Assembly (NCBI GenBank): GCA_030448105.1
Contig: JAUJNP010000001.1
Span: 297,403-361,402, forward strand
DNA length: 64,000 nucleotides
Source: Acidimicrobiales bacterium
Lineage (GTDB): Bacteria; Actinomycetota; Acidimicrobiia; Acidimicrobiales; Iamiaceae
Direction of reading: 5' to 3'
A program made the translations under genes and the position numbers. Position 1 is the first letter of the stretch. Every line of letters begins with the position of its first letter. This document shows positions 979-16,178 of this stretch, one piece after another. The notes under the pieces were generated by a model. It did not search any database. It was not told the origin of the DNA and worked only from the letters and a program-made list of their open reading frames with translations.

Positions 979-1944
979 TCAGGTGCGGGCCACGAGCACG
1001 CGAGGGCGACCGGCCAGGTCGGGGCGGACCTCGGGCGCGGCGAACCCGGCGGCGACGGCGAGGGCCCGGGCCGCGGTCGCCTGGGTGGCGCCCACCTCCA
1101 CCACCAACGCTCCCCCCGGCGCCAGCCAGCGGGGCGCGCCGGCCACCACCGCCCCGACCGCCTCCAAGCCGGTGGGCCCGGACACGAGGGCGTCGGGCGG
1201 CTCCCAGTCGGCCACCACCGGAGGCAGCTCCTCGCCAGCGGCCACGTAGGGCGGGTTGGCCACGATCACGTCCACCGAGCCGGCCAGGTCGGCCGGGAGG
1301 GCGTCGTACCAGTCGCCTTCGGCGAGGCGCACCCGGGTGGCGGCCCGCCCGCCGAGGCCGGCCAGGTTGGCCCGGGCCAGCGCGAGGGCGGCCGGCGAGC
1401 GTTCGGTGCCCCACACCGTCACCCCCTCGCGCTCGGCTGCCACCGACAGGGCGATGGCGCCCGACCCGGTGCCCAGGTCCACCACCACCGCCGTGCTCCC
1501 CCATGCATTCTTGGCGCGATCTCCCCTTGTTTCCGGGGGCGAATCGCGCCAATTCGAGGGGGAGGGGCCTGGGGGGGTGCGGGGGAGGCGGCGGTCGAGC
1601 TCGGCGAGGGCGTGGTCGACGACCTCTTCCGTCTCGGGCCGGGGGATCAGCACCCGCCGGTCGAGGGCAAGGTCGAGGCGGCGGAACCCCCATCGTCCGA
1701 GCACGTACTGCAGCGGCTCCCCGGCCATCCGGCGGGCCACCATGTCGTCGACACGGGCCACGCCGCGAGTGGTGACGGCGTCGTCGAGGTGGCGGTGCAG
1801 CTCGGCACCGTCGAAGCCGGACGCCTCCTCGACGATGCGGCGGGCGTCGACCGCCGGCGAGTCGACGCCCGCGCCGGTCAGCCGCGCTTGGGCCTCGCCG
1901 CGCAGCGCCCGCCACGAGACGGTCCCTTCGGCGGTGCCGATCAG
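979..1944 (-). CDS. prmC: Peptide chain release factor N5-glutamine methyltransferase PrmC
   Basis: PrmC (HemK) methylates the GGQ glutamine of release factors. The helical N-terminal domain is followed by a Rossmann methyltransferase with the SAM motif DLGTGSGA and the catalytic NPPY (VANPPYVA). It directly follows prfA, its substrate gene. No ATG, GTG or TTG lies in frame near the expected N-terminus; a CTG at 1944 overlaps the prfA TGA as CTGA and is the best start candidate. The protein (about 321 residues) is longer than usual because about 35 residues are inserted between DRRL and VVVDLG, where a 42-bp palindrome sits. Confidence 0.9.
   Translation of the reverse strand: MIGTAEGTVSWRALRGEAQARLTGAGVDSPAVDARRIVEEASGFDGAELHRHLDDAVTTRGVARVDDMVARRMAGEPLQYVLGRWGFRRLDLALDRRVLIPRPETEEVVDHALAELDRRLPRTPPGPSPSNWRDSPPETRGDRAKNAWGSTAVVVDLGTGSGAIALSVAAEREGVTVWGTERSPAALALARANLAGLGGRAATRVRLAEGDWYDALPADLAGSVDVIVANPPYVAAGEELPPVVADWEPPDALVSGPTGLEAVGAVVAGAPRWLAPGGALVVEVGATQATAARALAVAAGFAAPEVRPDLAGRPRVLVART
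1511..1552. repeat. 42-bp palindromic element, copy 1, inside prmC
   Basis: Arms TTGGCGCGAT (1511-1520) and ATCGCGCCAA (1543-1552) flank a C/G-rich centre. A second 42-bp element with the same arms lies at 59893-59934. The reverse complement of that copy shares the last 17 bases of this one exactly. The prmC frame stays open through the element, adding a NWRDSPPETRGDRAK-type segment. Confidence 0.8.
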
Positions 1945-3005
1945 GGCTCCCCGGTGAGGCGGCGGGCCTGCTCGTCGTGCACCAGGGCGTCGCTGATCTC
2001 GTCGAGCTCGCCGGCCAGCACCTTGTCGAGCTTGTAAAGGGTGAGACCGATGCGGTGGTCCGACACCCGGTTCTCCTTGAAGTTGTAGGTGCGGATCTTC
2101 TCCGAGCGGCCGCCCCCGCCCACCTGGTCGCGGCGCGCTTCGGACTGCTCGGAGGCCTGGCGCTCCTGCTCTAGGCGCAGCAACCGCGACCGGAGCACCT
2201 GCAGGGCCCGGGCCCGGTTCTGGATCTGGCTCTTCTCGTCCTGCATGGAGACCACCAGGCCGGTCGGCTTGTGGGTGATGCGCACCGCCGAGTCGGTGGT
2301 GTTGACCGATTGGCCGCCCGGGCCCGACGACCGGTACACGTCCACCTGGAGCTCGCCGGGGTCGAGGCGCACGTCGACCTCCTCGGCCTCCGGCAGCACC
2401 GTGACCGTGGCCGAGGAGGTGTGGATGCGCCCCTGGGCCTCGGTGACCGGCACCCGTTGCACGCGGTGGGGCCCACCCTCGTGCTTCATGCGGGTCCACA
2501 CGCCGTCCCCCCTCACCAGGAACGACACCTCGTTGTAGCCCCCCATGTCGCTGGGGGCCGACCCCAGCACCTCGACGGCCCACCCCATGCGGGCCGCCCA
2601 CGCCCGGTACATCTCGAACAGGTCGCGGGCGAAGAGGTTGGCCTCCTCGCCACCCTCGGCCCCGCGGATCTCGACGATGACGTTGCGGCCCTCGTTCGGG
2701 TCCTTGGGGAGCAGCAGCAGCTCGAGCTCGCGGGTCAACCCCTCGATGTCGACCTCGGCCGAGTCGACCTCGGCCCGCATCGCCTCACGGTCCTCCCCCG
2801 AGGACTCCGAGAACATCTCCCGGGCCGCCTCCAGGTCGCCGGAGCGCTCCCGCAACCGGCGGCTGCGCTCGACGATGGCGGCCAGCTCCTTGTGGCGGCG
2901 CGCCAGGTCGGCGTAGCGGGCCTGGTCGCGGTGCACGTCGGGATCGGCCAGGCGCACCTCGACGTCGGCGAACTCCCGCTCCAGCGCCTCGAGGCGATCG
3001 AGCAT
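1941..3005 (-). CDS. prfA: Peptide chain release factor 1 (RF1)
   Basis: RF1 terminates translation at UAA/UAG. The GGQ motif (SSGPGGQSVN) is near residue 228 and the stop-codon recognition tripeptide is PVT, the RF1 type rather than the RF2 SPF. Length is 354 residues, normal for the family. ATG start at 3005. It lies downstream of rho and rpmE and overlaps the likely prmC start. Order rho-rpmE-prfA-prmC is conserved in actinobacteria. Confidence 0.97.
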   Translation of the reverse strand: MLDRLEALEREFADVEVRLADPDVHRDQARYADLARRHKELAAIVERSRRLRERSGDLEAAREMFSESSGEDREAMRAEVDSAEVDIEGLTRELELLLLPKDPNEGRNVIVEIRGAEGGEEANLFARDLFEMYRAWAARMGWAVEVLGSAPSDMGGYNEVSFLVRGDGVWTRMKHEGGPHRVQRVPVTEAQGRIHTSSATVTVLPEAEEVDVRLDPGELQVDVYRSSGPGGQSVNTTDSAVRITHKPTGLVVSMQDEKSQIQNRARALQVLRSRLLRLEQERQASEQSEARRDQVGGGGRSEKIRTYNFKENRVSDHRIGLTLYKLDKVLAGELDEISDALVHDEQARRLTGEP

Positions 3006-4717: not shown

Positions 4718-6418
4718 TCAGCCCGTGGCCGCCGCCTTGGCGATCTCGGTGAGGAACGCGTCGTTGGACTTGAACGTCTTCATGCGGTCGATGAGCAGCT
4801 CAAGGCCGGCGGCGCCGCTGGCGCCCTCCCCGCCCAGCCCCGACAGCACCCGTCGCAGCTTCCACACCTGCTGGAGCTGCTTGCGCTCGAACAGGAGCTC
4901 CTCGTGGCGGGTGGAGGAGGCGTCGACGTCGATGGCGGGGTAGATCCGCCGGTCGGCCATGCGCCGGTCGAGCTTGAGCTCCATGTTGCCGGTGCCCTTG
5001 AACTCCTCGAAGATCACCTCGTCCATGCGGGATCCGGTCTCCACCAGCGCCGTGGCCAGGATGGTGAGCGATCCGCCCTCCTCCACGTTGCGGGCGGCGC
5101 CGAAGAACTTCTTGGGGGGGTAGAGGGCGCCGGTGTCCATGCCGCCCGACATGATGCGGCCGGTGGGCGGCGCCGCCAGGTTGTAGGCACGGGCCAGGCG
5201 GGTGATGCCGTCGAGGATGATCACCACGTCGGTGCCCTCCTCCACCATGCGCTTGGCCCGCTCGATGACCAGCTCGGCCACCTGGGTGTGCTCCTCGGCC
5301 GGCCGATCGAAGGTGGAGGCCGCCACCTCGCCGTGCTGCAGCCACCGGCGCATGTCGGTGACCTCCTCGGGCCGCTCGTCGACGAGCAGGACGATGAGCT
5401 TCACCTCGGGGTTGTTGACCTCGATGGAGCGAGCCACCTGCTTCATCACCGTGGTCTTGCCCGCCTTGGGGGGCGAGACGATGAGGCCGCGCTGACCCTT
5501 GCCGATGGGGGCGATGAGGTCGATGATCCGGGCCGTCATGTTGGTGGGATCGTCGGGCTGTTCGAGGCGAAGCCGCTCGTCGGGGAACAGCGGGGTGAGG
5601 TCCTCGAACCTCGCCCGCTGGCTGGCCGCCACCGGGTCCTGGCCGTTGACGGCGTCGATCTGGAGCAGTGCCGGGTTCTTCTCGGTGCGGGCCGCGGGGC
5701 GGCTCTTGCCGGCGACGCGGTCGCCCTTGCGCAGGGCGAACTGGCGGACCTGCTTGACCGACACGTAGACGTCGTCCCGGGTGGGGAGGTAGCCCCGGAG
5801 CCGGAGGAAGCCGTACCCCTCGTCGCGTAGGTCGAGCAGTCCCTCGACGTCGACGGGATCACCGAGGAAGGTGTCGTCGGGCTGGCCACCAGCGGCGCCT
5901 CCCGGGGCCCCCTGGCCACGGTCGCGCCCCCGGCGCCGCCGCCGACGATTGCCGGGTTCGCCGTCCTCGGCGGGCCGCGGGCCCCCCGGCTCGGCGCCGT
6001 CGGGACCGCCGACCGACAGGCCGGTCTGGCCGGGGAGCGGTTGCGGGGGGGCAGGCGCGCCAGGGGTGACGGAGGCCTCGATGGTGTTGGCGTCGGCCGG
6101 CTCGGCGCCGGCGTCGGCCTGGACCGGCGGGCGAGCGTCGACCGGCGGACCCGCCATGCCAGCGGCCGGGTCCGGACGCGTGTCGGCCGGGGCGACGGCG
6201 GCGACGGCGGCCGGGGGTTCGAGCTCGACGGAGGGAACGGGCTCGGCGGTGTCGCCGTTCGGGCCGGCGGCGACGGGCACGCCGGCCAGCTGCAGGATGA
6301 GGTCGACGATGTCGGCCTTCTTGGCCCGCGAGGGCGGCCGCTGCCCGAGCTGCTCGGCGATCTGGGTGAGCTCGTCACGCTCCTTGCGTTCGAGCAGCGA
6401 CCGCTCGAACCCGCTCAT
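4718..6418 (-). CDS. rho: Transcription termination factor Rho
   Basis: Hexameric RNA/DNA helicase that terminates transcription. From the ATG at 6418 it is 566 residues. A SAP-like N-terminal segment ([20 protein letters not shown]) is followed by a Pro/Ala-rich and then Arg/Gly-rich insertion ([14 protein letters not shown]), typical of actinobacterial Rho. The RNA-binding cold-shock-like domain ([12 protein letters not shown]) comes next, then the ATPase with Walker A PKAGKTT near residue 318 and Walker [11 protein letters not shown]. It heads the rho-rpmE-prfA-prmC block. Confidence 0.97.
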
Positions 6419-6679
6419 CGCGGCACCGTCGCCGCTGGTGATGGCCCTGTGGGATGGCTCATGGGGTACCTCGCTTCGTGGGGAGCCGAGGGTAGGAGAC
6501 TCCCTGGGGCCGATCCGGCGCGGCTCATCGCTGCAGCCGGTCGGCGGATGCCCCCTCGGCAACTCCTCGACCGGTCAGCACTCGACCCGCCGGGAGGGAA
6601 CGCGGTCAGCATAGACCCGGGCCTGCGAGGGCACCGCACCGGTGGCATGTGATCATGGCGGACGCCCTGATCGCCGTCG

Positions 6680-7127: not shown

Positions 7128-8453
7128 TCACGGGATCGAGTACGCCGTCAGGGCCTGGTCACCGGTGCTGACGAACAGCATGTTTCCGTCCACGTGGGGA
7201 GTGTCGACCAGGCTGGCCTGCCACGCCTGCCTGAGCCGGACCTGGCCGTCGGCATCGAGGACGGCAAGCTGCTCGAGATCGAGTAGTCCCAGACGACCCT
7301 CCCCGAGCTCCAGCAGAAGGGCCGGGTACTCGATCGGTGAGGCGATCTCGCGCACGACGTCGCCGGTCCCCGGATCCACCTCGGCCAGCGAGCCGCCGCT
7401 CCCCGCCACCCAGAGCCGGTCTCCGACGAGTGCGCCTACGGGGCCCGGACGGCTCCAGCGGCGGCTGCCGTCGGCCCGGTCGACGGTCACCAGCTCCGGG
7501 TACCCGGGTAGGTGGACGTACGGGCCGTTGATGACCGCGGGGAAGAAGTGGAAGCTCTGGCCGCCGCCCGTGCCGGCCATCCAGCGAACGGAGCCGTCGG
7601 CGACGTCCAGGAGGTGGGCCACGTTCTCCCTGGCGCTACCAGCGTGGCTGAGCGTCGACAGGAAGACGGTTTGGCCGTCGTTCACGGGTGGAGTTCCCCA
7701 CTCCAGGTCGGTGCCCTCGACGAGCGGGGTCCGCCAGGTCACGGCACCGGTGCTGGTGTTCACGCCCAGCACGACGGGGGGCCGGACGTCTCCTTCCCCG
7801 TTGGCCGACAGACCGATGGCACTGAGCGGCTCGGCGATGGCAGATGTGACGGCGCCGTAGCCGTCCAAGCCGAGCGCCGAGAGGGAGATCTCCCAGCGGA
7901 CGGTTCCGTCATCGGCGTCGAGCCCCACGATCTTCTCGTATTGGGTGTTGGCGATGACGACCCCGCCGGTGGCGCCTTGCAGGAAGGCGGGCCCGCCAAG
8001 CCTCGCCGTCCACCGCACCTCTCCGCTCGCCCGCTCGAGCCCCGAGATTCGACCGACCGCGTCGCCTCCGCCGGAACCGAAGCCTTCGGCAGCGAAGATC
8101 CCGTCGCCCCAGGCCACAGCCAGCCGGCCGCTGGTGGCTCCGAAGCTCTCTCCCATGCCGACGTCCGGCGCGCTCCAGAGCCGCCGCAGGCCGGTCTCGC
8201 CGCTGGTCGATTCGGGCGCGGACGTGCCCGGTGGTTCCCCGACGAACACCGAGGAATCGTCGTTCCTGTGGCGCTCCACGAGCGAGAGGGCGACGAGGCC
8301 ACCGGCCACTGCGAGAACCGTGGCGATGGCGAGCACCCGCTGCCGGGTTCTGCGACGGATCCGGGCCATCACGTCACCGAGCGCCTTCTCGGTGTCCGGC
8401 GACCCCGCCGCGGATCGAAGCCGTCGATCGAGATCAAGAGGGCTCGGCATCAT
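7128..8453 (-). CDS. Membrane-anchored PQQ-like beta-propeller protein, partner of ECF sigma factor
   Basis: About 441 residues. A short cytoplasmic N-terminus (PLDLDRRLRSAAGSP, DVMARIRRRTRQR) precedes one transmembrane helix (VLAIATVLAVAGGLVAL), an extracytoplasmic Ser/Thr linker and a propeller with PQQ-type repeats (TGAVTWRTPL, DGSVRWMAG, DGSRRWSRPG). The start (ATG 8453 or 8450) lies inside the end of the sigma factor gene, so the two are translationally coupled. The anti-sigma position and topology suggest that it senses an external signal and controls the sigma factor; no classic zinc anti-sigma HxxxCxxC motif is present. Confidence 0.8.
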   Translation of the reverse strand: MMPSPLDLDRRLRSAAGSPDTEKALGDVMARIRRRTRQRVLAIATVLAVAGGLVALSLVERHRNDDSSVFVGEPPGTSAPESTSGETGLRRLWSAPDVGMGESFGATSGRLAVAWGDGIFAAEGFGSGGGDAVGRISGLERASGEVRWTARLGGPAFLQGATGGVVIANTQYEKIVGLDADDGTVRWEISLSALGLDGYGAVTSAIAEPLSAIGLSANGEGDVRPPVVLGVNTSTGAVTWRTPLVEGTDLEWGTPPVNDGQTVFLSTLSHAGSARENVAHLLDVADGSVRWMAGTGGGQSFHFFPAVINGPYVHLPGYPELVTVDRADGSRRWSRPGPVGALVGDRLWVAGSGGSLAEVDPGTGDVVREIASPIEYPALLLELGEGRLGLLDLEQLAVLDADGQVRLRQAWQASLVDTPHVDGNMLFVSTGDQALTAYSIP

Positions 8454-8934
8454 CCACCTCCGTTTGGTTCCGGTCTTCGAGCAGCTCGGCCAGCCGGTGG
8501 CGACCACGCGAGAGGTGCGAGCGGACCGTCACGTCGGCGCAGCCGAGGACCTCGGCGATGTCAGCTGTGGGCCAGCCGCCGAGGTGGTGCATGACCACTG
8601 CTGTCCGCTGTGCCTTCGAGAGCTGGCCCAGGGCGGCAACGAGGTCGACGTTGTCGTCGTCAGCCGATTGCATCGGGTGAAAGGACGCCTCCACCACCCG
8701 CCGCCGGCGGCGCCGCCACCGGGCACGGCCTGCCTTCCGGAGCGCGACGCGTCGCACCCATGCGCCGGGACGATTGAAGCCGCCCACCGTCTCCCAGTGG
8801 CGCCAGAGCTCGACGAAGCCCTCGGCCGCCACGTCCTCCGCCAGTCGTTGGTCGCCCAGGATCAGCCTGAGCTCTCGAACCAGGCCGGGATACTCAGCCC
8901 GGAACAGCTCCGCGAACCGCCCGCGCTTGTCCAT
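8434..8934 (-). CDS. ECF sigma factor, SigE-like family
   Basis: A 166-residue extracytoplasmic-function sigma factor. Region 2 (FAELFRAEYPGLVRELRLIL, EDVAAEGFVELWRHW) and region 4 with a helix-turn-helix (LSKAQRTAVVMHHLGGWP, DIAEVLGCADVTVRSHLSRG) are present. The ATG at 8934 (MDKRGRFAEL) was chosen; a GTG ten codons upstream is possible. Its last bases overlap the start of the membrane propeller gene, its likely regulator. Confidence 0.88.
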   Translation of the reverse strand: MDKRGRFAELFRAEYPGLVRELRLILGDQRLAEDVAAEGFVELWRHWETVGGFNRPGAWVRRVALRKAGRARWRRRRRRVVEASFHPMQSADDDNVDLVAALGQLSKAQRTAVVMHHLGGWPTADIAEVLGCADVTVRSHLSRGRHRLAELLEDRNQTEVDDAEPS

Positions 8935-9011
8935 CTCCCGTGACACTGTCACCAGCGGCCGAAAACGTTGCGGGCGATCGACACGATCGCCCCGCCGGCC
9001 CCAGCTCGGGG

Positions 9012-10154
9012 TTAGCCGACCAGGCGGCCCATGAGGGTGTGGCCGGGCACGGGGGCGCAGTCGGCGGTGGCCGCCTCGGTGTAGGTGCCGCCCGAGCCCG
9101 CGGACCGGGAGTCCACCAGCAGGTAGGGCACCGGTTCGGACGTGTGGGTCTTGCGCTCCACCGGGGTGGGGTGGTCGGGCAGCAGCAGCAGCCGCCAAGG
9201 CCCCAGGGCGTCGAGGCCCTCCACCAGGCCGGGCAGGATGCGGCGGTCCCAGTGCTCGAGGGCCCGGACCTTTTCGTCCACGTCGCCGGCGTGACCGGCT
9301 TCGTCGGTGGCCTCCACGTGGATCAAGAACAGGTCGGCGCCGTCGGCCAGGGTGTCGAGGGCGGCGTCGCGCTTGGCCTCGTAGTCGGTGTCGTACCAAC
9401 CGGTGGCGCCGGGCACCTCCACCACCCGCATGCCTGTGAGCACCCCGAGCCCCCGGACCAGGTCGACCGCGGTGACCAGGCCGGCGTCGAGTCCGTAGGT
9501 GTCGGCGAACGACGGGAGCTGCGGCTGGTGGCCCTGACCCCAGAGCCACACCGCCGTGGCGGCCAGAGGCGACGCCGACACGATGGCCTGCGAGGCCTCC
9601 ATCAGCGCCCGCAGCTTCGGGGCGGCCGGGCCGGTGGGCCACACCGCGGGCTGGTCGCTCAGGTCGTGGGGCGGTACGCACTCGGCGTCGGCCCACTCAG
9701 CCGGCGCCACCACGATGTGTCGGTACTGGAACCCGGGGTGGAACGACACGCCGTCGCTGCCGAGCTCGGCGTCGAGGGTCCGGATCACCTCGGTCGCGGC
9801 GGCAGTGTCGGGGTGCCCGCCGGCGAAGTCGATCATGGTCCCGTCGGCTGAGAGGGTGACCAGGTTGCAGCGGTAGGCGACCTGGTCGGGGGCCAGTCGC
9901 AGGCCGAGGGCGGCGGCCTCGATGGGGGCGCGACCGGTGTGGTGGAGGGCGGGGTCGTAGCCCAGGATGCTCATGTTGCCCACGTCGCTGCCGGGGGGAA
10001 GCCCGGGGGGGATCACCGCCGCCCGCCCCACCTCGCCCCGGGCGGCCAGCCCGGCCAGCGTGGGCAGGTTCGCCGCCTCCAGCGGCGTGCGCCCGCCGAG
10101 GGCGGCGACCGGTTCGTCGGCGCACCCGTCCGGCACGCACACCACGTACTTCAC
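9012..10154 (-). CDS. ApgM-family alkaline-phosphatase-superfamily enzyme; probable alternative homoserine kinase
   Basis: 380 residues, GTG start (VKYVVCVPDGCAD). Alkaline-phosphatase-superfamily metal and nucleophile motifs are visible: CVPDG, GSDVGNMSILGYDP with the catalytic serine, HVEATDEAGHAGD and LLLPDHPTPVERKTHT. Family members are annotated either as cofactor-independent phosphoglycerate mutase (archaeal type) or as proposed homoserine kinase. It sits 10 bases after thrC in an argS-lysA-hom-thrC operon where mycobacteria carry thrB, and no GHMP-type thrB occurs in the window. I therefore infer homoserine phosphorylation as its role; mutase activity is the alternative. Confidence 0.82.
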   Translation of the reverse strand: MKYVVCVPDGCADEPVAALGGRTPLEAANLPTLAGLAARGEVGRAAVIPPGLPPGSDVGNMSILGYDPALHHTGRAPIEAAALGLRLAPDQVAYRCNLVTLSADGTMIDFAGGHPDTAAATEVIRTLDAELGSDGVSFHPGFQYRHIVVAPAEWADAECVPPHDLSDQPAVWPTGPAAPKLRALMEASQAIVSASPLAATAVWLWGQGHQPQLPSFADTYGLDAGLVTAVDLVRGLGVLTGMRVVEVPGATGWYDTDYEAKRDAALDTLADGADLFLIHVEATDEAGHAGDVDEKVRALEHWDRRILPGLVEGLDALGPWRLLLLPDHPTPVERKTHTSEPVPYLLVDSRSAGSGGTYTEAATADCAPVPGHTLMGRLVG

Positions 10155-10164
10155 CCCCGGGAGG

Positions 10165-11553
10165 CTACGGGAGGTGCTGGCTTGCTCCGCCACGGGCGGA
10201 GGTTCCCACGCAACCTCGAACGTGGGCCTGCACGACGCCGAGGTCGGCGGGCAGGAGGTCGAAGCGCTCGGGCCGCTCGGCCAGGTCGGCGAGGCGGTCG
10301 GGCAAGGGGGGGCGGATACCGGTGGCGGCCTCGACGGCGTCGGGGAACTTGGCGGGGTGGGCGGTGGAGAGGCACACGATGGGCTCATCCCCGCCCCGGC
10401 GGAGGCGGCGGGCGGCGCCGATGCCGACGGCGGTGTGGGGGTCCACGAGGTGTCCCGTCGACGCGTGGACCTCGGCGATGACCGATCGGGTCTCGTCGTC
10501 GTCGAGGCGGGCGGCGGAGAAGACCGGATCGCACGGCGCCTCGACCGTGCCGAGCGCACGGGCCCGGCCCAGGAGCTCCGCGACCCGCGCGCCGTCGCGG
10601 TCGAGCAGCTCGAACAGCACCCGCTCCACGTTGGACGAGACCTGCACGTCCATCGCCGGGCTGATGGTGGGCACCACCTCCTCGCTGACCAGCGCGCCGG
10701 TGGCCACCCACCGGCAGACGATGTCGTTGCGGTTGGAACCGATGAGCAGGCGGTCGACGGGCACGCCCATGCGCCGGGCGTACCAGCCGGCGAGGACGTT
10801 GCCGAAGTTGCCGGTGGGCACGGCGAACGCGCACCGGCCGACGGCCTCGGTGGCGCTGCGGTAGTAGACGAGCTGGGCCATCACCCGAGCCCAGTTGATC
10901 GAGTTCATGGCCGAGAGACGCAGGTCGCGGCGGAAGGCATCGTCGGCGAACATGGCCTTCACCAGGTCCTGGCAGTCGTCGAACGTGCCCTCCACGGCCA
11001 CGTTGTGGACGTTGGGCGCGTCCACCGTGGTCATCAGGCGCCGCTGCACGTCGCTCACCCGGCCCGCGGGGTGCAGCACCACGATGTCGAGGGTGCTGCG
11101 CCCGGCGCAGGCCTCGATGGCGGCCGAGCCGGTGTCGCCCGAGGTGGCCACCACGATGGTGGCCCGCTCGCCCCGCCGCGTGAGCTCGGCGTCGAAGAGC
11201 CGCCCCACGAGCTGGAGGGCCACGTCCTTGAACGCCAGGGTCGGCCCGTGCCACAGCTCCTGCACCCAGAGGCGACGGTCGATCTCGGTGAGGGGGCACA
11301 CGTCGGGGTGGTCGAAGCCGGCGTAGGCGTCGGCCACCATGGCCACGAACGGGCCCGGGGCCATCGCACCGTCGACGAAGGGCCACATGGTCTCCACGGC
11401 CACGTCGACGTAAGGGCGGCGCCCGTCCGTCGCGCCCGGCAGAGAGGGCAACTCCTCGGGCACGTAGAGGCCCCCGTCGGTGGCCAGCCCGGCCAGCAGC
11501 ACGTCGGCGAAGTCGAGGACCGGGGCCCGGCCCCGGGTGCTGACGTACTTCAT
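10165..11553 (-). CDS. thrC: Threonine synthase
   Basis: A PLP enzyme converting O-phosphohomoserine to threonine. Length 462 residues, ATG start with the typical MKYVSTRG N-terminus. The PLP lysine lies in HGPTLAFKDVALQ. The substrate/phosphate loops ATSGDTGSAA and VPTGNFGNVLAGWYA are intact. This long form resembles the enterobacterial/fungal class rather than the short actinobacterial one. It lies between hom and the proposed kinase that would supply its substrate. Confidence 0.95.
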   Translation of the reverse strand: MKYVSTRGRAPVLDFADVLLAGLATDGGLYVPEELPSLPGATDGRRPYVDVAVETMWPFVDGAMAPGPFVAMVADAYAGFDHPDVCPLTEIDRRLWVQELWHGPTLAFKDVALQLVGRLFDAELTRRGERATIVVATSGDTGSAAIEACAGRSTLDIVVLHPAGRVSDVQRRLMTTVDAPNVHNVAVEGTFDDCQDLVKAMFADDAFRRDLRLSAMNSINWARVMAQLVYYRSATEAVGRCAFAVPTGNFGNVLAGWYARRMGVPVDRLLIGSNRNDIVCRWVATGALVSEEVVPTISPAMDVQVSSNVERVLFELLDRDGARVAELLGRARALGTVEAPCDPVFSAARLDDDETRSVIAEVHASTGHLVDPHTAVGIGAARRLRRGGDEPIVCLSTAHPAKFPDAVEAATGIRPPLPDRLADLAERPERFDLLPADLGVVQAHVRGCVGTSARGGASQHLP

Positions 11554-11563
11554 CCCCGCCGCC

Positions 11564-12880
11564 TCAGGCGTCGTCGCCGACGACGCGCAGCACCGAGCCG
11601 ACGTGGTGGATCACGTCGAGGTCGCGGAGGTCGGCCAGGGTGGCTTGCACGTCGGCCTCCCGGGCCTGGTGGGTGATGAAGATGAGCCGGGCCTCCTCGC
11701 CGAGGCCCTGCTGCTCCATCGACCGGATGGACACGCCGTGGCGCTCCACCACCTCGGCGATGGCCCGCAGGACGCCGGGGCGGTCCTCCACGTCGAGGTT
11801 GAGGTAGTAGGAGCTGACCACCTCGTCGATGGGCCGGATGCGGGCCTTGGCCAGCGCGCCGACGGTGGCGTGGGTGCCGCGGCAGAGGTTGGTGGCGGCG
11901 TCGACGAGGTCGCCCAGCACGGCCGAAGCCGTGGGCCGGCCCCCCGCCCCCCTCCCGTAGAACATGAGCTCGCCGACCGACCGGCCCTCCACGAACACGG
12001 CGTTGAACGTGTCGCGGACGTTGGCCAGGGGGTGGGCCAGGGGCACCATCGCCGGGTGCACCCGCACGCCGATCTCGTCACCGTCGGGCCCCGGCGTGCG
12101 CTCGGCCACCGCCAGCAGCTTGATCGCGTATCCGAGGCGGTCGGCGAAGGCGATGTCGGCGGCGGTGATGCCGGCGATGCCCTCGTGGTGGACGTCGCCG
12201 GCGACCACCCGGGCGCCGAAGGCGATCGACGCCAGGATGGCCGCCTTGGACCCGGCGTCGAAGCCCTCCACGTCGGCCGCCGGGTCACGCTCGGCGAACC
12301 CGAGGCTCTGGGCCTCGGCCAGGGCCTCGGCGTAGCCGCTGCCCTGCTCGCTCATGCGGGTGAGGATGAAGTTGGTGGTGCCGTTGACGATGCCCATCAC
12401 CCGGCTGATGTCCTCGCCGGCCAGGGACTCCCGCAGCGGACGGAGGATGGGGATGGCCCCGGCCACCGCCGCCTCGAAGAGGAGGTCGACGCCGGCGGCG
12501 TCAGCGGCGGCGAACAGCTCGGACCCGTGGTTGGCCAGGAGCTCCTTGTTGGCGGTGACCAGCGGCTTGCCGCCCTTGAGGGCGGCCAGGCTCAGCTCCC
12601 GGGCCGGTTCGATCCCGCCGATGACTTCGACCACCACGTCGATGTCGGGGGCGTCGACCACCGCCGCGGTGTCGCGGGTGAGCACGTCGGGACCGAGCAC
12701 CACCGGGCGCTCCCGGGCAAGGCTGCGCACGGCCACCCTCGCCACCTCGAGGCGCAGGCCGGTGCGGGCCGCGATGGCGTCGCGGCGCTCGCCGAGCAGG
12801 GCAACGAGGGCGGCCCCCACGTTGCCGCACCCGAGCACGCCGACGCGCACGATGCCGTCGCCAGCCGGGGATCGGTCCAC
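11564..12880 (-). CDS. hom: Homoserine dehydrogenase
   Basis: NAD(P)H-dependent reduction of aspartate semialdehyde to homoserine. The GTG start at 12880 gives 438 residues: dinucleotide-binding VRVGVLGCGNVGAALV, then VVVEVIGG, the catalytic region NGTTNFILTRM and the ERDPAADVEGFDAGSK substrate segment. A C-terminal ACT domain (YYLNLDVEDRPGVLRAIAEV) probably mediates threonine feedback. It lies 10 bases upstream of thrC. Confidence 0.96.
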   Translation of the reverse strand: MDRSPAGDGIVRVGVLGCGNVGAALVALLGERRDAIAARTGLRLEVARVAVRSLARERPVVLGPDVLTRDTAAVVDAPDIDVVVEVIGGIEPARELSLAALKGGKPLVTANKELLANHGSELFAAADAAGVDLLFEAAVAGAIPILRPLRESLAGEDISRVMGIVNGTTNFILTRMSEQGSGYAEALAEAQSLGFAERDPAADVEGFDAGSKAAILASIAFGARVVAGDVHHEGIAGITAADIAFADRLGYAIKLLAVAERTPGPDGDEIGVRVHPAMVPLAHPLANVRDTFNAVFVEGRSVGELMFYGRGAGGRPTASAVLGDLVDAATNLCRGTHATVGALAKARIRPIDEVVSSYYLNLDVEDRPGVLRAIAEVVERHGVSIRSMEQQGLGEEARLIFITHQAREADVQATLADLRDLDVIHHVGSVLRVVGDDA

Positions 12881-12911: not shown

Positions 12912-14181
12912 CTACAGGTCGAATCGGAGCAGGTCGTCGTGGGTCTCGCGCCGCACGACCAGGCGGGCGTCACCGCCGGACACGAACACCACCGGTGGGC
13001 GCGGCACCTTGTTGTAGTTGGAGCCCATGGAGTGGCCGTAGGCGCCGGTGACGGGCGTGGCCAGGAGGTCGCCCACCGCCAGGTCGGCGGGCACCGCCGC
13101 GTCCCGAACCAGCACGTCACCGGACTCGCAGTGCTTGCCGACCACGGTCACGGTACGAGGGCGCTCGGCGGTCGGCGCCCGCGGCAGGAACGTCTCGTAG
13201 CCGCTGCCGTAGAGCACGGGCCGGGGGTTGTCGCTCATGCCGCCGTCGACCGACACGTAGGTCCGGATGCCGGCCAGGTCCTTCACCGTGCCCACCGTGT
13301 AGAGCGTGATGGCCGCGCCGGCCACGACCGCCCGGCCGGGCTCGGCCGTCACCCGGGCGGTGATCCCGGCATCGGCGCACGCCGACCGCACCGCCGCCGC
13401 CCACTCGCTGATGGTCGGCGCCTCCTCCCCGGCCACGTAGGCGACGCCGACGCCGCCGCCCACCGACAGCTCGGGCAGGCCCGACGCGGCGACGAAGGGG
13501 GCGATGGCCTCCACCGCCGCCGCGAAGAACCGGGCCACGAAGACCTGGCTGCCGATGTGCATGTGCAGGCCGACGAGGTCGACGGCGGCCGAGGCGCGGG
13601 CCCGCTCGACGGCGGCGTCGGCGACGCCGGTGGAGAGGGTGAAGCCGAACTTGGAGTCGTCCTGGCCGGTGCGCACGAACTCGTGGGTGTGGGCCTCGAC
13701 GCCCGGGGTGACCCGCAACAGCACGGCGGGCACCCGGCCGTCCTCGGCGTGCAGCCGCTCCAACCGGTCGAGCTCGTCGTGGCTGTCGACCACGATGCGG
13801 CCGACCCCCGCAGCCCGGGCCGACCGCAACTCGCCCTCGCTCTTGTTGTTGCCGTGCAGCACCAGCCGGGCGGGCCCCACCCCGGCGGCAAGGGCCACGT
13901 GCAGCTCGCCACCGCTGGCCACGTCGAGGTGCATGCCCTCCTCGTCGGCGAGGGCGGCCATGGCGCGGCTACAGGAAGGCCTTGGTGGCATAGGCCACGC
14001 CGTCGCCGAAGGCGGCCACCGCCTCCCGGCAGCGGGCCCGGAGCTGATCCTCGTCGTAGACGAACAACGGGGTGCCGAGCTCGGCGGCCAGCTCGGCGGT
14101 GGAGCACCCGCCGATCCGGAGCCACCCGTCGGGTCCCACCTCGGCCGAGTCGGGCAGCAACGACCACGGTAGGGGTGTCAC
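12912..14181 (-). CDS. lysA: Diaminopimelate decarboxylase, one-base frameshift as sequenced
   Basis: The last step of lysine biosynthesis. The GTG at 14181 overlaps the argS stop (GTGA). The N-terminal part (TPLFVYDEDQLRARC, then YATKAFL with the PLP lysine) runs into a TAG at 13971-13969. The protein resumes one frame over as RAMAALADEEGMHLDVASGGEL through HMHIGSQV, SVGGGVGVAYV and CESGDVLVRD to the end. Removing the single A at 13971 restores FLCRAMAALA. With the correction it is about 422 residues, normal length. As lysine biosynthesis is expected to be essential, a sequencing error is likelier than decay. Confidence 0.9.
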
Positions 14182-15783
14182 ATCGACTCGGGGGCGGACA
14201 CGCCGAGCAGGTCGAGGCCGATGGCGAAGACCCGGGCCGCCTCCACCAGCCATAGCCGGGCGGAGGTGAGCTGGCGGCTGATGTCGTCGCCCATCACGTA
14301 GCAGTCGTGGTAGAAGCCGTGGAAGCGGTCGGCCAGCTCCCGCACCCACGTGGCCACCTTGTGGGGCGCCCGCTCGGCGGCGGCCACGGCCACCACGTCG
14401 GGCAGCTCGGAGAGGGTCCGCAGCAGCTCCAGCTCGCGGGGGTGACCGAGCAGGCCGAGGTCCACCTGGTCGAGCGGCGGGCGCGCCACCCCCGCTCGCC
14501 CGCCACCCGGTTGATGGAGGCGATCCGGGTGTGGGCGTACTGCACGTAGTACACGGGCGACTCCGCGACTCGCTCCGCACCTTGTCGAGGTCGACGGTGA
14601 CGGCCTGGTCGATGGAGGTCAGCAGCGACAGCAGCCGGGTGGCGTCGGGGCCGAGGTCGGCCACCACGTCGTCGAGGTCGACCACGTTGCCCGCCCGCTT
14701 CGACATCCGCCCGCTGGTGAGCGAGATCATCTGGCCCAGCCGCACCTCGAGCCGTCCCCGCTCCACCCCGAGGGCCTCCACGCCGGCGAGGAGGCTGGCG
14801 ACCTGGCCGTGGTGGTCGGCCCCCCACACGTCGATCACCCGGTCGAAGCCCCGGACGAGGAACTTGTCGCGGTGGTAGGCGAGGTCGCCGGCGAAGTAGG
14901 TGTAGTCGCCGTCGGACTTCGGAGCACCCGCTGCTCCCGAGGGTCACCGAAGTCGGCCGTGCGCAGCCAGACCCGCGCCGTCCTCCTCGAACACCAGCCC
15001 CTTCTCGGCCAGCAGCGCCACCGTTTCGCCCACGGCCTCGCTCTCCTGGATCGACGCCTGGCTGAACCACTCGTCGTAGGTGATGTGGATGGACTCCATG
15101 GTCCGGCGGATGCCGTCCAGGATGCGCTCGGCGGCCCAGCGTCCGGCCGCCTCGATGTCGTGCGGGCCGTCGTAGCTCGCCGCCAGGTCGGCCACGTACC
15201 GGCCGGGATAGCCCCCGTCCGGGACGGGCTCTCCCCGCACGTGGGCCAGCACGCTCGCCCCCAGGAGGCGGATCTGGCCGCCGGTGTCGTTTACGTAGTA
15301 CTCCCGCTGGACGGTGTGGCCGCAGCGCTCGAGCACACGGCCGAGGGCGTCGCCGTAGGAGGCGAACCAGCCGTTGCCGACGTGCACCGGACCAGTGGGG
15401 TTGGCCGACACGAACTCGATCTGCACCCGCTCTGGCTTCTTGTCGAGGGGTCGGGCGTAGCCGGCGACGCCGGCCTGCACCACCTCGGCCAGGACCTCGT
15501 GCAGCCACGAGTCGGCCAGGTGGAGGTTCACGAACCCCGGGCCGGCCACCTCCACCCGATCCACGTGCTGCGGCGGCGAGGCGGCGAGCTCGGCGGCCAG
15601 CGCGGCAGCCAGCTCCCGAGGGTTGCGACCGGCGGGCTTGGCCAGGGCGAGGGCCACGTTGGTCGACCAGTCGCCGTGCTCGCGCCGCGCCGGCCGCTCG
15701 AGCACCACCCCCGCCGGGGGCGGCTCCAGGCCGAGCGCGCCGAGGGCCACGCGGACGGTGGCGGCGAGGTCGTCGCGGATCAC
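14178..15783 (-). CDS. argS: Arginyl-tRNA synthetase, several one-base indels as sequenced
   Basis: A class I aminoacyl-tRNA synthetase. The HIGH-like motif is in ANPTGPVHVGNGWF and the KMSKS-like motif in TSGRMSKRAGNVV. The reading is broken four times: an extra base at about 14972-14974 and missing bases near 14920, 14564-14567 and 14489-14493. The conserved sequence continues seamlessly in another frame each time (VWLRTADFGDPR, SDGDYTYFAGDLAYHRDK, ESPVYYVQYAHTRIASINR, ARPPLDQVDLGLLGHPRE). Corrected length is about 535 residues. Two of the four sites are in C/G runs, as expected from read errors in an essential gene. Confidence 0.9.
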
Positions 15784-15803
15784 GGGGCGCGCTCGGATGG
15801 GGG

Positions 15804-16178
15804 TCAGCGGTCGAGCAGCTTGTCGACCCGCGCCAGCAGGTCGTCGGGCTCGAAGGGCTTGGTGAGGAACTCGTCGGCGCCGGCGTCCAGCCCGGCCCGC
15901 ACGTCGGCGGCCAGGCCCTTGGCCGACAGGAGCACCACCGGGATGTGGGCGGTGGTGGGATCGGTCTTGACCTCGGCCAGCAGCTCGAGCCCGCTGCGCC
16001 TCGGCATCATGATGTCCGAGACGATCACGTCGGGCTGGTCGGAGCGGGCCCGGTCCACGCCCTCGGCCCCGTCGGTGGCCCGCAGGACCACGAAACCCTC
16101 GAGCTCGAAGTTGACCGCGAGCAGGTCGAGGATGACGGGGTCGTCGTCGACCAGGAGGATCCTCGGGCCGGGCATCAC
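15804..16178 (-). CDS. Single-domain response regulator (CheY-like receiver)
   Basis: A receiver domain only, 123-124 residues, with no output domain. The acidic pocket and phosphoacceptor are present (ILLVDDDP, VIVSDIMMP with Asp, then LLSAKG and TKPFEPDDLL with the conserved Lys). The start is GTG 16178 or ATG 16175. It ends 20 bases before argS on the same strand and may be the first gene of the argS-lysA-hom-thrC operon. No cognate kinase is adjacent. Confidence 0.9.
   Translation of the reverse strand: MMPGPRILLVDDDPVILDLLAVNFELEGFVVLRATDGAEGVDRARSDQPDVIVSDIMMPRRSGLELLAEVKTDPTTAHIPVVLLSAKGLAADVRAGLDAGADEFLTKPFEPDDLLARVDKLLDR

Follow-up and report, generated by a model that had tools for sequence, protein, structure and literature searches.

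A ThrB2-type ApgM-fold protein as the predicted homoserine kinase in a threonine operon of Acidimicrobiales

Which enzyme phosphorylates homoserine in an Acidimicrobiales bacterium that carries hom and thrC side by side, and in which the gene next to thrC encodes not ThrB, the ATP-dependent GHMP homoserine kinase, but a protein of the ApgM fold? In the window analysed in this study (a stretch of 64,000 nucleotides), the gene order is argS-lysA-hom-thrC-X-rho, where X is the ApgM-fold gene (Table 1). The first-pass annotation had described X as an alkaline-phosphatase-superfamily enzyme of the ApgM type, lying 10 bases past thrC in argS-lysA-hom-thrC where thrB is expected, and had proposed that it is the homoserine kinase.

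The gene and its neighbours

The location of X was confirmed by the coordinates and by the profile matches of the neighbouring genes: the open reading frame is intact, starts with GTG and begins 10 nt past the thrC stop. The argS pieces carry an in-frame stop near 14944 and frame shifts near 14500-14560, and the break is probably an assembly or sequencing error, argS being essential.

Table 1. Features around the ApgM-fold gene in the window
Feature	Coordinates	Strand	Evidence or remark
prfA, peptide chain release factor	1941-3005	(-)	PF03462, PF00472; extends the conserved order
rho	4718-6562	(-)	PF07497, PF00006; closes the thrC-X-rho slot
PQQ-repeat protein	7128-8507		downstream of X
ECF-type sigma factor	8434-9012		downstream of X
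X, ThrB2-type ApgM-fold gene	9012-10154	(-)	380 aa; predicted homoserine phosphotransferase
thrC, threonine synthase, long type with Thr_synth_N	10165-11553	(-)	TIGR00260 257 bits (cut-off 167); PF14821, PF24857
hom, homoserine dehydrogenase with ACT domain	11564-12880	(-)	NF004976 533 bits; PF00742, PF03447, PF01842
lysA, diaminopimelate decarboxylase	12912-14144	(-)	PF02784, PF00278
argS region, interrupted reading frame	14181-16032	(-)	tblastn with the ArgS of a relative with an intact gene: pieces in three frames

The X protein matched PF10143 (PhosphMutase, 153 bits) and PF01676 (Metalloenzyme) and passed TIGR00306 (apgM) with 409.7 bits against a cut-off of 320; the assignment to the ApgM type of the alkaline phosphatase superfamily was upheld. 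Over its full length it scored 417.9 bits with TIGR02535, the model named 'proposed homoserine kinase', which is below the cut-off of 446.3, and it barely passed the phosphoglycerate mutase model NF003242/PRK04200 (427.4 bits, cut-off 426). That a subfamily of ApgM-like proteins has been proposed as homoserine kinase, as the first-pass annotation stated, is documented by TIGR02535 of TIGRFAM and by GapMind in 2020 (PMC7311316), and by a gut-genome survey of 2022 that named the family ThrB2 and noted that in Bacteroidetes it and thrB occur in a complementary way and take each other's place in operons (PMC9026213). As judged from sequence, the X protein is ThrB2-like and a divergent sister of the curated TIGR02535 members.

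The association of this gene with the threonine pathway is far beyond chance: among 110 loci of the ThrB2 clade in relatives, 96 carry thrC and/or hom upstream on the same strand, and in 71 of the 110 thrC is directly upstream. Depending on the genome, the thrC position of the operon in Acidimicrobiia is taken by one of two types of threonine synthase, the long one with Thr_synth_N or a short one of about 350 aa, and the ThrB2-clade gene adjoins both (the window thrC; L099, L102 and L121). In a same-family genome assembled as a single contig (L098, identical to G093), the ThrB2-clade gene lies beside rho with thrC megabases off, indicating that the two genes can be separated.

Kinases and mutases in the genome and across Acidimicrobiia

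The assembly to which the window belongs is 3.29 Mb in 49 contigs (93.9% complete, 3.7% contaminated), and the relatives found are Acidimicrobiia. The lack of a GHMP homoserine kinase, noted in the first-pass annotation for the window, was found to extend to the whole assembly: TIGR00191 (thrB) gave no match anywhere in it, and the only two GHMP kinases, named from sequence reading, are galactokinase (galK) and IspE. The APH-type homoserine kinase model TIGR00938 (thrB_alt) had no match in this genome either; it was used in place of PF01636 (APH), which, when run over 20 genomes, was too broad and gave 19 matches in this genome. In the route from Hom to threonine, homoserine phosphorylation is the sole missing step. 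Two genomes of the same family, one of them a single contig with 99% completeness, are also free of thrB, and both carry gpmA.

A canonical gpmA is present in the own genome as well (G000:C46:48595-49341; TIGR01258 342 bits, cut-off 81.7), so that the X protein is not the sole phosphoglycerate mutase. Some matches to PF00300 looked like possible mutases, and TIGR01258 left one clear gpmA. PF01676 was matched only by X, and hence there is neither gpmI nor a second ApgM.

For the analysis of occurrence we employed 119 genomes of the class, each at least 90% complete, with thrB counted at 100 bits or more (no score fell between 49 and 101 bits) and with the ThrB2 clade assigned by sequence class rather than by the PF01676 match alone. 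A first table that counted all PF01676 matches was dropped, since 13 phosphopentomutase-like proteins and 6 PRK04135-type mutases were among them. Both genes were found in 5 genomes, thrB only in 74, the ThrB2-clade gene only in 26 and neither in 14, an anti-correlation that is significant by Fisher test over genomes (p=1.5e-11), with one vote per genus (p=1e-10) and with one vote per family (p=3e-5), while thrC is present in 118 of the 119. Outside the class, the Nitrospirota and delta-proteobacterial genomes with ThrB2 homologues were found to carry no credible thrB.

The occurrence of gpmA, in contrast, is independent of that of the ThrB2-clade gene (both 26, gpmA only 76, ThrB2-clade gene only 5, neither 12; p=0.77). 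A survey of mutases in 2010 counted archaeal-type iPGM in bacteria and saw it alongside dPGM only in those that had bacterial iPGM as well (PMC2964296); gpmA and the ThrB2-clade gene stand together in the 26 class genomes. Six gpmA-less genomes (L100, L103, L104, L106, L108 and L119) carry a separate ApgM with the DRRAGR motif, which was of PRK04135 type in all three that were scored, and five of these six have the ThrB2-clade gene in addition. This DRRAGR/PRK04135-type ApgM is apparently the replacement phosphoglycerate mutase of these six organisms, and the retention of the threonine-operon copy where gpmA is missing and the mutase job has passed to another ApgM indicates that the two functions are separate. 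Four other gpmA-less Acidimicrobiia have PF01676 matches of gpmI length.

The 14 genomes with neither thrB nor ThrB2, 13 of which have thrC, imply further homoserine kinases or assembly gaps, and for this reason arguments from absence are not watertight. Streamlined genomes of about 1 Mb in one family, f15 (G005, G011, G017, G024, G028, G032, G036 and G040), carry thrC in 7 of 8 cases, and no thrB, ThrB2-clade gene or above-cut-off thrB_alt was detected in them; the same three are missing from L220, listed with this family, where hom and thrC are nevertheless adjacent. Either a third homoserine kinase operates in f15 or the pathway is incomplete. In another family of the same order, f2 (G030, identical to L218, G078, G101 and G116), thrC is present, but neither ThrB2 nor a thrB scoring over 100 bits, and the thrC-rho slot of G030 is closed up; here another homoserine kinase or assembly gaps are possible.

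The slot behind thrC and the predicted role

The expectation that thrB should follow thrC was examined in other Actinomycetota. Outside Acidimicrobiia, thrC is directly upstream of thrB in 29 of 30 thrB loci, and the longer stretches read lysA-hom-thrC-thrB-rho, often with prfA, so the slot between thrC and rho is indeed the one that holds thrB. Within Acidimicrobiia the same interval contains the ThrB2-clade gene, or thrB (G066), or neither with thrB located elsewhere; in G051, too, thrB comes directly after thrC. In a tblastn search with Hom and ThrC of the window, none beside thrB was seen at first in the sampled class genomes; after the thrC loci were fetched, thrB of Acidimicrobiia turned out to be usually elsewhere and only sometimes in the slot. 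Besides the five class genomes with both genes, IMCC26207 (L048) also carries the two. In one family (f21), four genomes have thrB plus the ThrB2-clade gene and three have thrB only, and in two of these three, which were inspected, the hom-thrC-rho interval lacks the ThrB2-clade gene. This pattern looks like a replacement under way.

Taken together, the presence of hom and thrC in a genome devoid of thrB, thrB_alt or any other GHMP candidate, the anti-correlation with thrB and the swap in situ lead us to infer that the X protein is likely the organism's homoserine kinase, making O-phosphohomoserine in the cell. Its distinctness from the mutase is supported by the presence of gpmA, the independence from gpmA and the separate PRK04135-type ApgM of gpmA-less relatives. 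The proposal of a homoserine kinase in the thrB slot is supported by all of these lines, with the activity itself deduced from them. It is further favoured by the altered residues described below, by the Nitrospirota and delta-proteobacterial genomes that have homologues but no credible thrB, by the threonine requirement of BT2402 mutants (PMC7311316) and by the complementary occurrence of ThrB2 and thrB in gut genomes (PMC9026213). The best reading of the locus is that a phosphotransferase of the ThrB2/TIGR02535 type has taken over, in situ, the operon place of the GHMP-type ThrB. Against it stand the genomes with both genes, those with neither, the TIGR02535 score below the cut-off, the score just above the cut-off of a model named for phosphoglycerate mutase and the failure of BT2402 of Bacteroides thetaiotaomicron, a protein of this family, to rescue a thrB mutant of E. 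coli (PMC7311316).

The case of BT2402 could also mean that such proteins are required for threonine synthesis without being the kinase, as a partner or in a different step, with an unrecognised kinase, for instance a shikimate-kinase-like one, acting on homoserine. The BT2402 mutants required threonine in minimal medium (PMC7311316), a shikimate-kinase-type homoserine kinase (DvMF_0971) is known from Desulfovibrio (PMC5764234), and the 14 class genomes with neither gene point in the same direction. We regard this explanation as unlikely: only two steps lead from homoserine to threonine, and ThrC is present for one of them; moreover, the ThrB2-clade gene and thrB replace each other in one and the same slot, and the former is lost in some thrB-bearing genomes (those of f21), as predicted if both have the same function. 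A later methods paper refers to BT2402 as 'the alternative homoserine kinase' with conserved zinc sites (PMC9765024). In the literature searched, we found neither an enzyme assay (O-phosphohomoserine formation) of any family member nor a paper describing the actinobacterial ThrB2 clade.

Residues, proposed reaction and known systems

The AlphaFold model of the X protein (mean pLDDT 96) gave as best structural matches the archaeal ApgM 2zkt (E=2.5e-32) and 3idd/3kd8, and the ApgM fold, the metal ligands and the nucleophilic serine are all present. The predicted nucleophile, Ser56, lies in GSDVGNMSILGYDP, and D9, D284, H288, D327, H328 and H337 are presumably the metal ligands, as taken from the alignment to ApgM and from what is known of iPGM. 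We aligned 44 clade members, five of them from Nitrospirota and delta-proteobacteria, with 8 mutase-type sequences (the six DRRAGR-type paralogues, 3kd8 and 2zkt). Common to the clade and the mutase types are D9, G55, S56, R75, R95, N97, D109, R145, D274, D284, D327, H328 and H337; clade members and archaeal enzymes also have H288 in common. From mutase to clade, the changes are H60N, R110F, R114H, H144Y, D161P, R205W, R238V, K281E and V321R; position 110 is F or Y in 44 of 44 members, and H114, Y144, W205 and E281 occur in 43-44 of 44. The ThrB2-clade proteins lack the DRRAGR, H144, R205 and K281 equivalents retained by the mutase types, and in the tree all 44 fall together with 100/100 support against the mutases, on long branches. 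The replaced residues may well serve phosphoglycerate binding, in which case the loss of several basic residues and the gain of an acidic one would fit a change of substrate, with zwitterionic homoserine in place of the anionic phosphoglycerate.

In iPGM the phosphoryl group is known to pass through a serine bound to the metals (PMC5382265), which is the chemistry of the family, and on this basis we propose a phosphoserine intermediate at Ser56 followed by transfer to the homoserine hydroxyl. The two-metal centre, with S56 itself among the predicted ligands, would activate Ser56, which would accept the phosphoryl group from a donor (candidates are phosphoenolpyruvate, another phosphometabolite or a nucleotide) to form the phosphoserine enzyme; homoserine would sit where ApgM mutases bind phosphoglycerate, and its gamma-hydroxyl would take the phosphoryl group to give O-phosphohomoserine, the substrate for ThrC. 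TIGRFAM curators have suggested a donor such as PEP (reported in PMC7311316). More tentatively than the kinase role itself, and at somewhat less than even chances, we suggest an amino-acid phosphotransferase that works through the phosphoserine intermediate and draws its phosphoryl group not from ATP but from PEP or some other phosphoester of glycolysis; if true, threonine synthesis would be coupled to metabolites of lower glycolysis, and the failure of BT2402 in E. coli could be accounted for as well.

A protein with both activities, that is, a homoserine phosphotransferase retaining residual phosphoglycerate mutase or donor activity, for example with 2-PG or 3-PG as the donor, would agree with the fold and catalytic core that X shares with ApgM, and a plausible non-ATP donor could help to explain the failed heterologous complementation; the loss of the arginines and the lysine kept by the mutase types makes it improbable, and on the main role it overlaps with our preferred explanation. 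A role of X as a plain 2,3-BPG-independent phosphoglycerate mutase (ApgM) that lies in the threonine operon by happenstance, as its NF003242 annotation would suggest, is highly improbable, for although it exceeds the NF003242 cut-off, has archaeal ApgM as its closest structures and conserves metal ligands and nucleophile, gpmA is in the genome, no association with gpmA exists over the 119 genomes, the PRK04135-type ApgM appears only without gpmA and in five of six cases alongside a ThrB2-clade gene, charged or polar residues invariant in mutase types are replaced (R110F, R114H, H144Y, R205W, K281E), and the strong anti-correlation with thrB would be left unexplained.

Returning to the X protein as a homoserine kinase, its step is among the commonest predicted gaps in amino-acid pathways, affecting 20% of 148 prototrophs by GapMind (PMC7311316). 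Since these ThrB2-clade proteins of Acidimicrobiia pass a phosphoglycerate mutase model, they would be misannotated, and their owners look like threonine auxotrophs. Acidimicrobiia are discriminating in this respect, with a same-slot thrB swap, a lineage with both genes and siblings without the replacement, and an ApgM mutase coexisting with a ThrB2-clade protein; for assays, they provide matched pairs of mutase and kinase along with a short residue list. New here are the actinobacterial clade that falls under the TIGR02535 cut-off and passes the mutase model, and the sharper genomic tests; the clade adds a new, divergent lineage to a kind already proposed and does not constitute a kind of its own.

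Comparison with known systems places the X protein closest to ThrB2/TIGR02535 as represented by BT2402, with which it shares the full-length family, the hom/thrC context and an occurrence complementary to thrB (PMC7311316, PMC9026213, PMC9765024). The scored Acidimicrobiia members differ in reaching 397-420 bits, below 446, and mostly just attain NF003242 instead, whereas the deep-branching Acidimicrobiia member G012 passes TIGR02535 with 498 bits, as do the Nitrospirota and delta relatives with 533 bits; the operon here is the actinobacterial lysA-hom-thrC-X-rho and not the thrC/asd-hom operons of gut Bacteroidetes. PhpG (CMP-5'-phosphonoformate:3-phosphoglycerate phosphonoformyl transferase) also belongs to the ApgM family, its annotation being that of a transferase whose donor is nucleotide-activated, but it serves a different pathway, and the X protein scores far below the cut-off of its model (NF038358; 168 bits, cut-off 545). 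With ApgM (2zkt, 3kd8; NF003160, PRK04135) the fold, two-metal site and nucleophilic serine are shared, but the mutase DRRAGR is DF[AS][AG]GH in the clade, the occurrence of which follows thrB and not gpmA. With the GHMP ThrB (TIGR00191), finally, the X protein has in common the operon slot and the predicted product, while its PF01676/PF10143 domains represent an unrelated fold.
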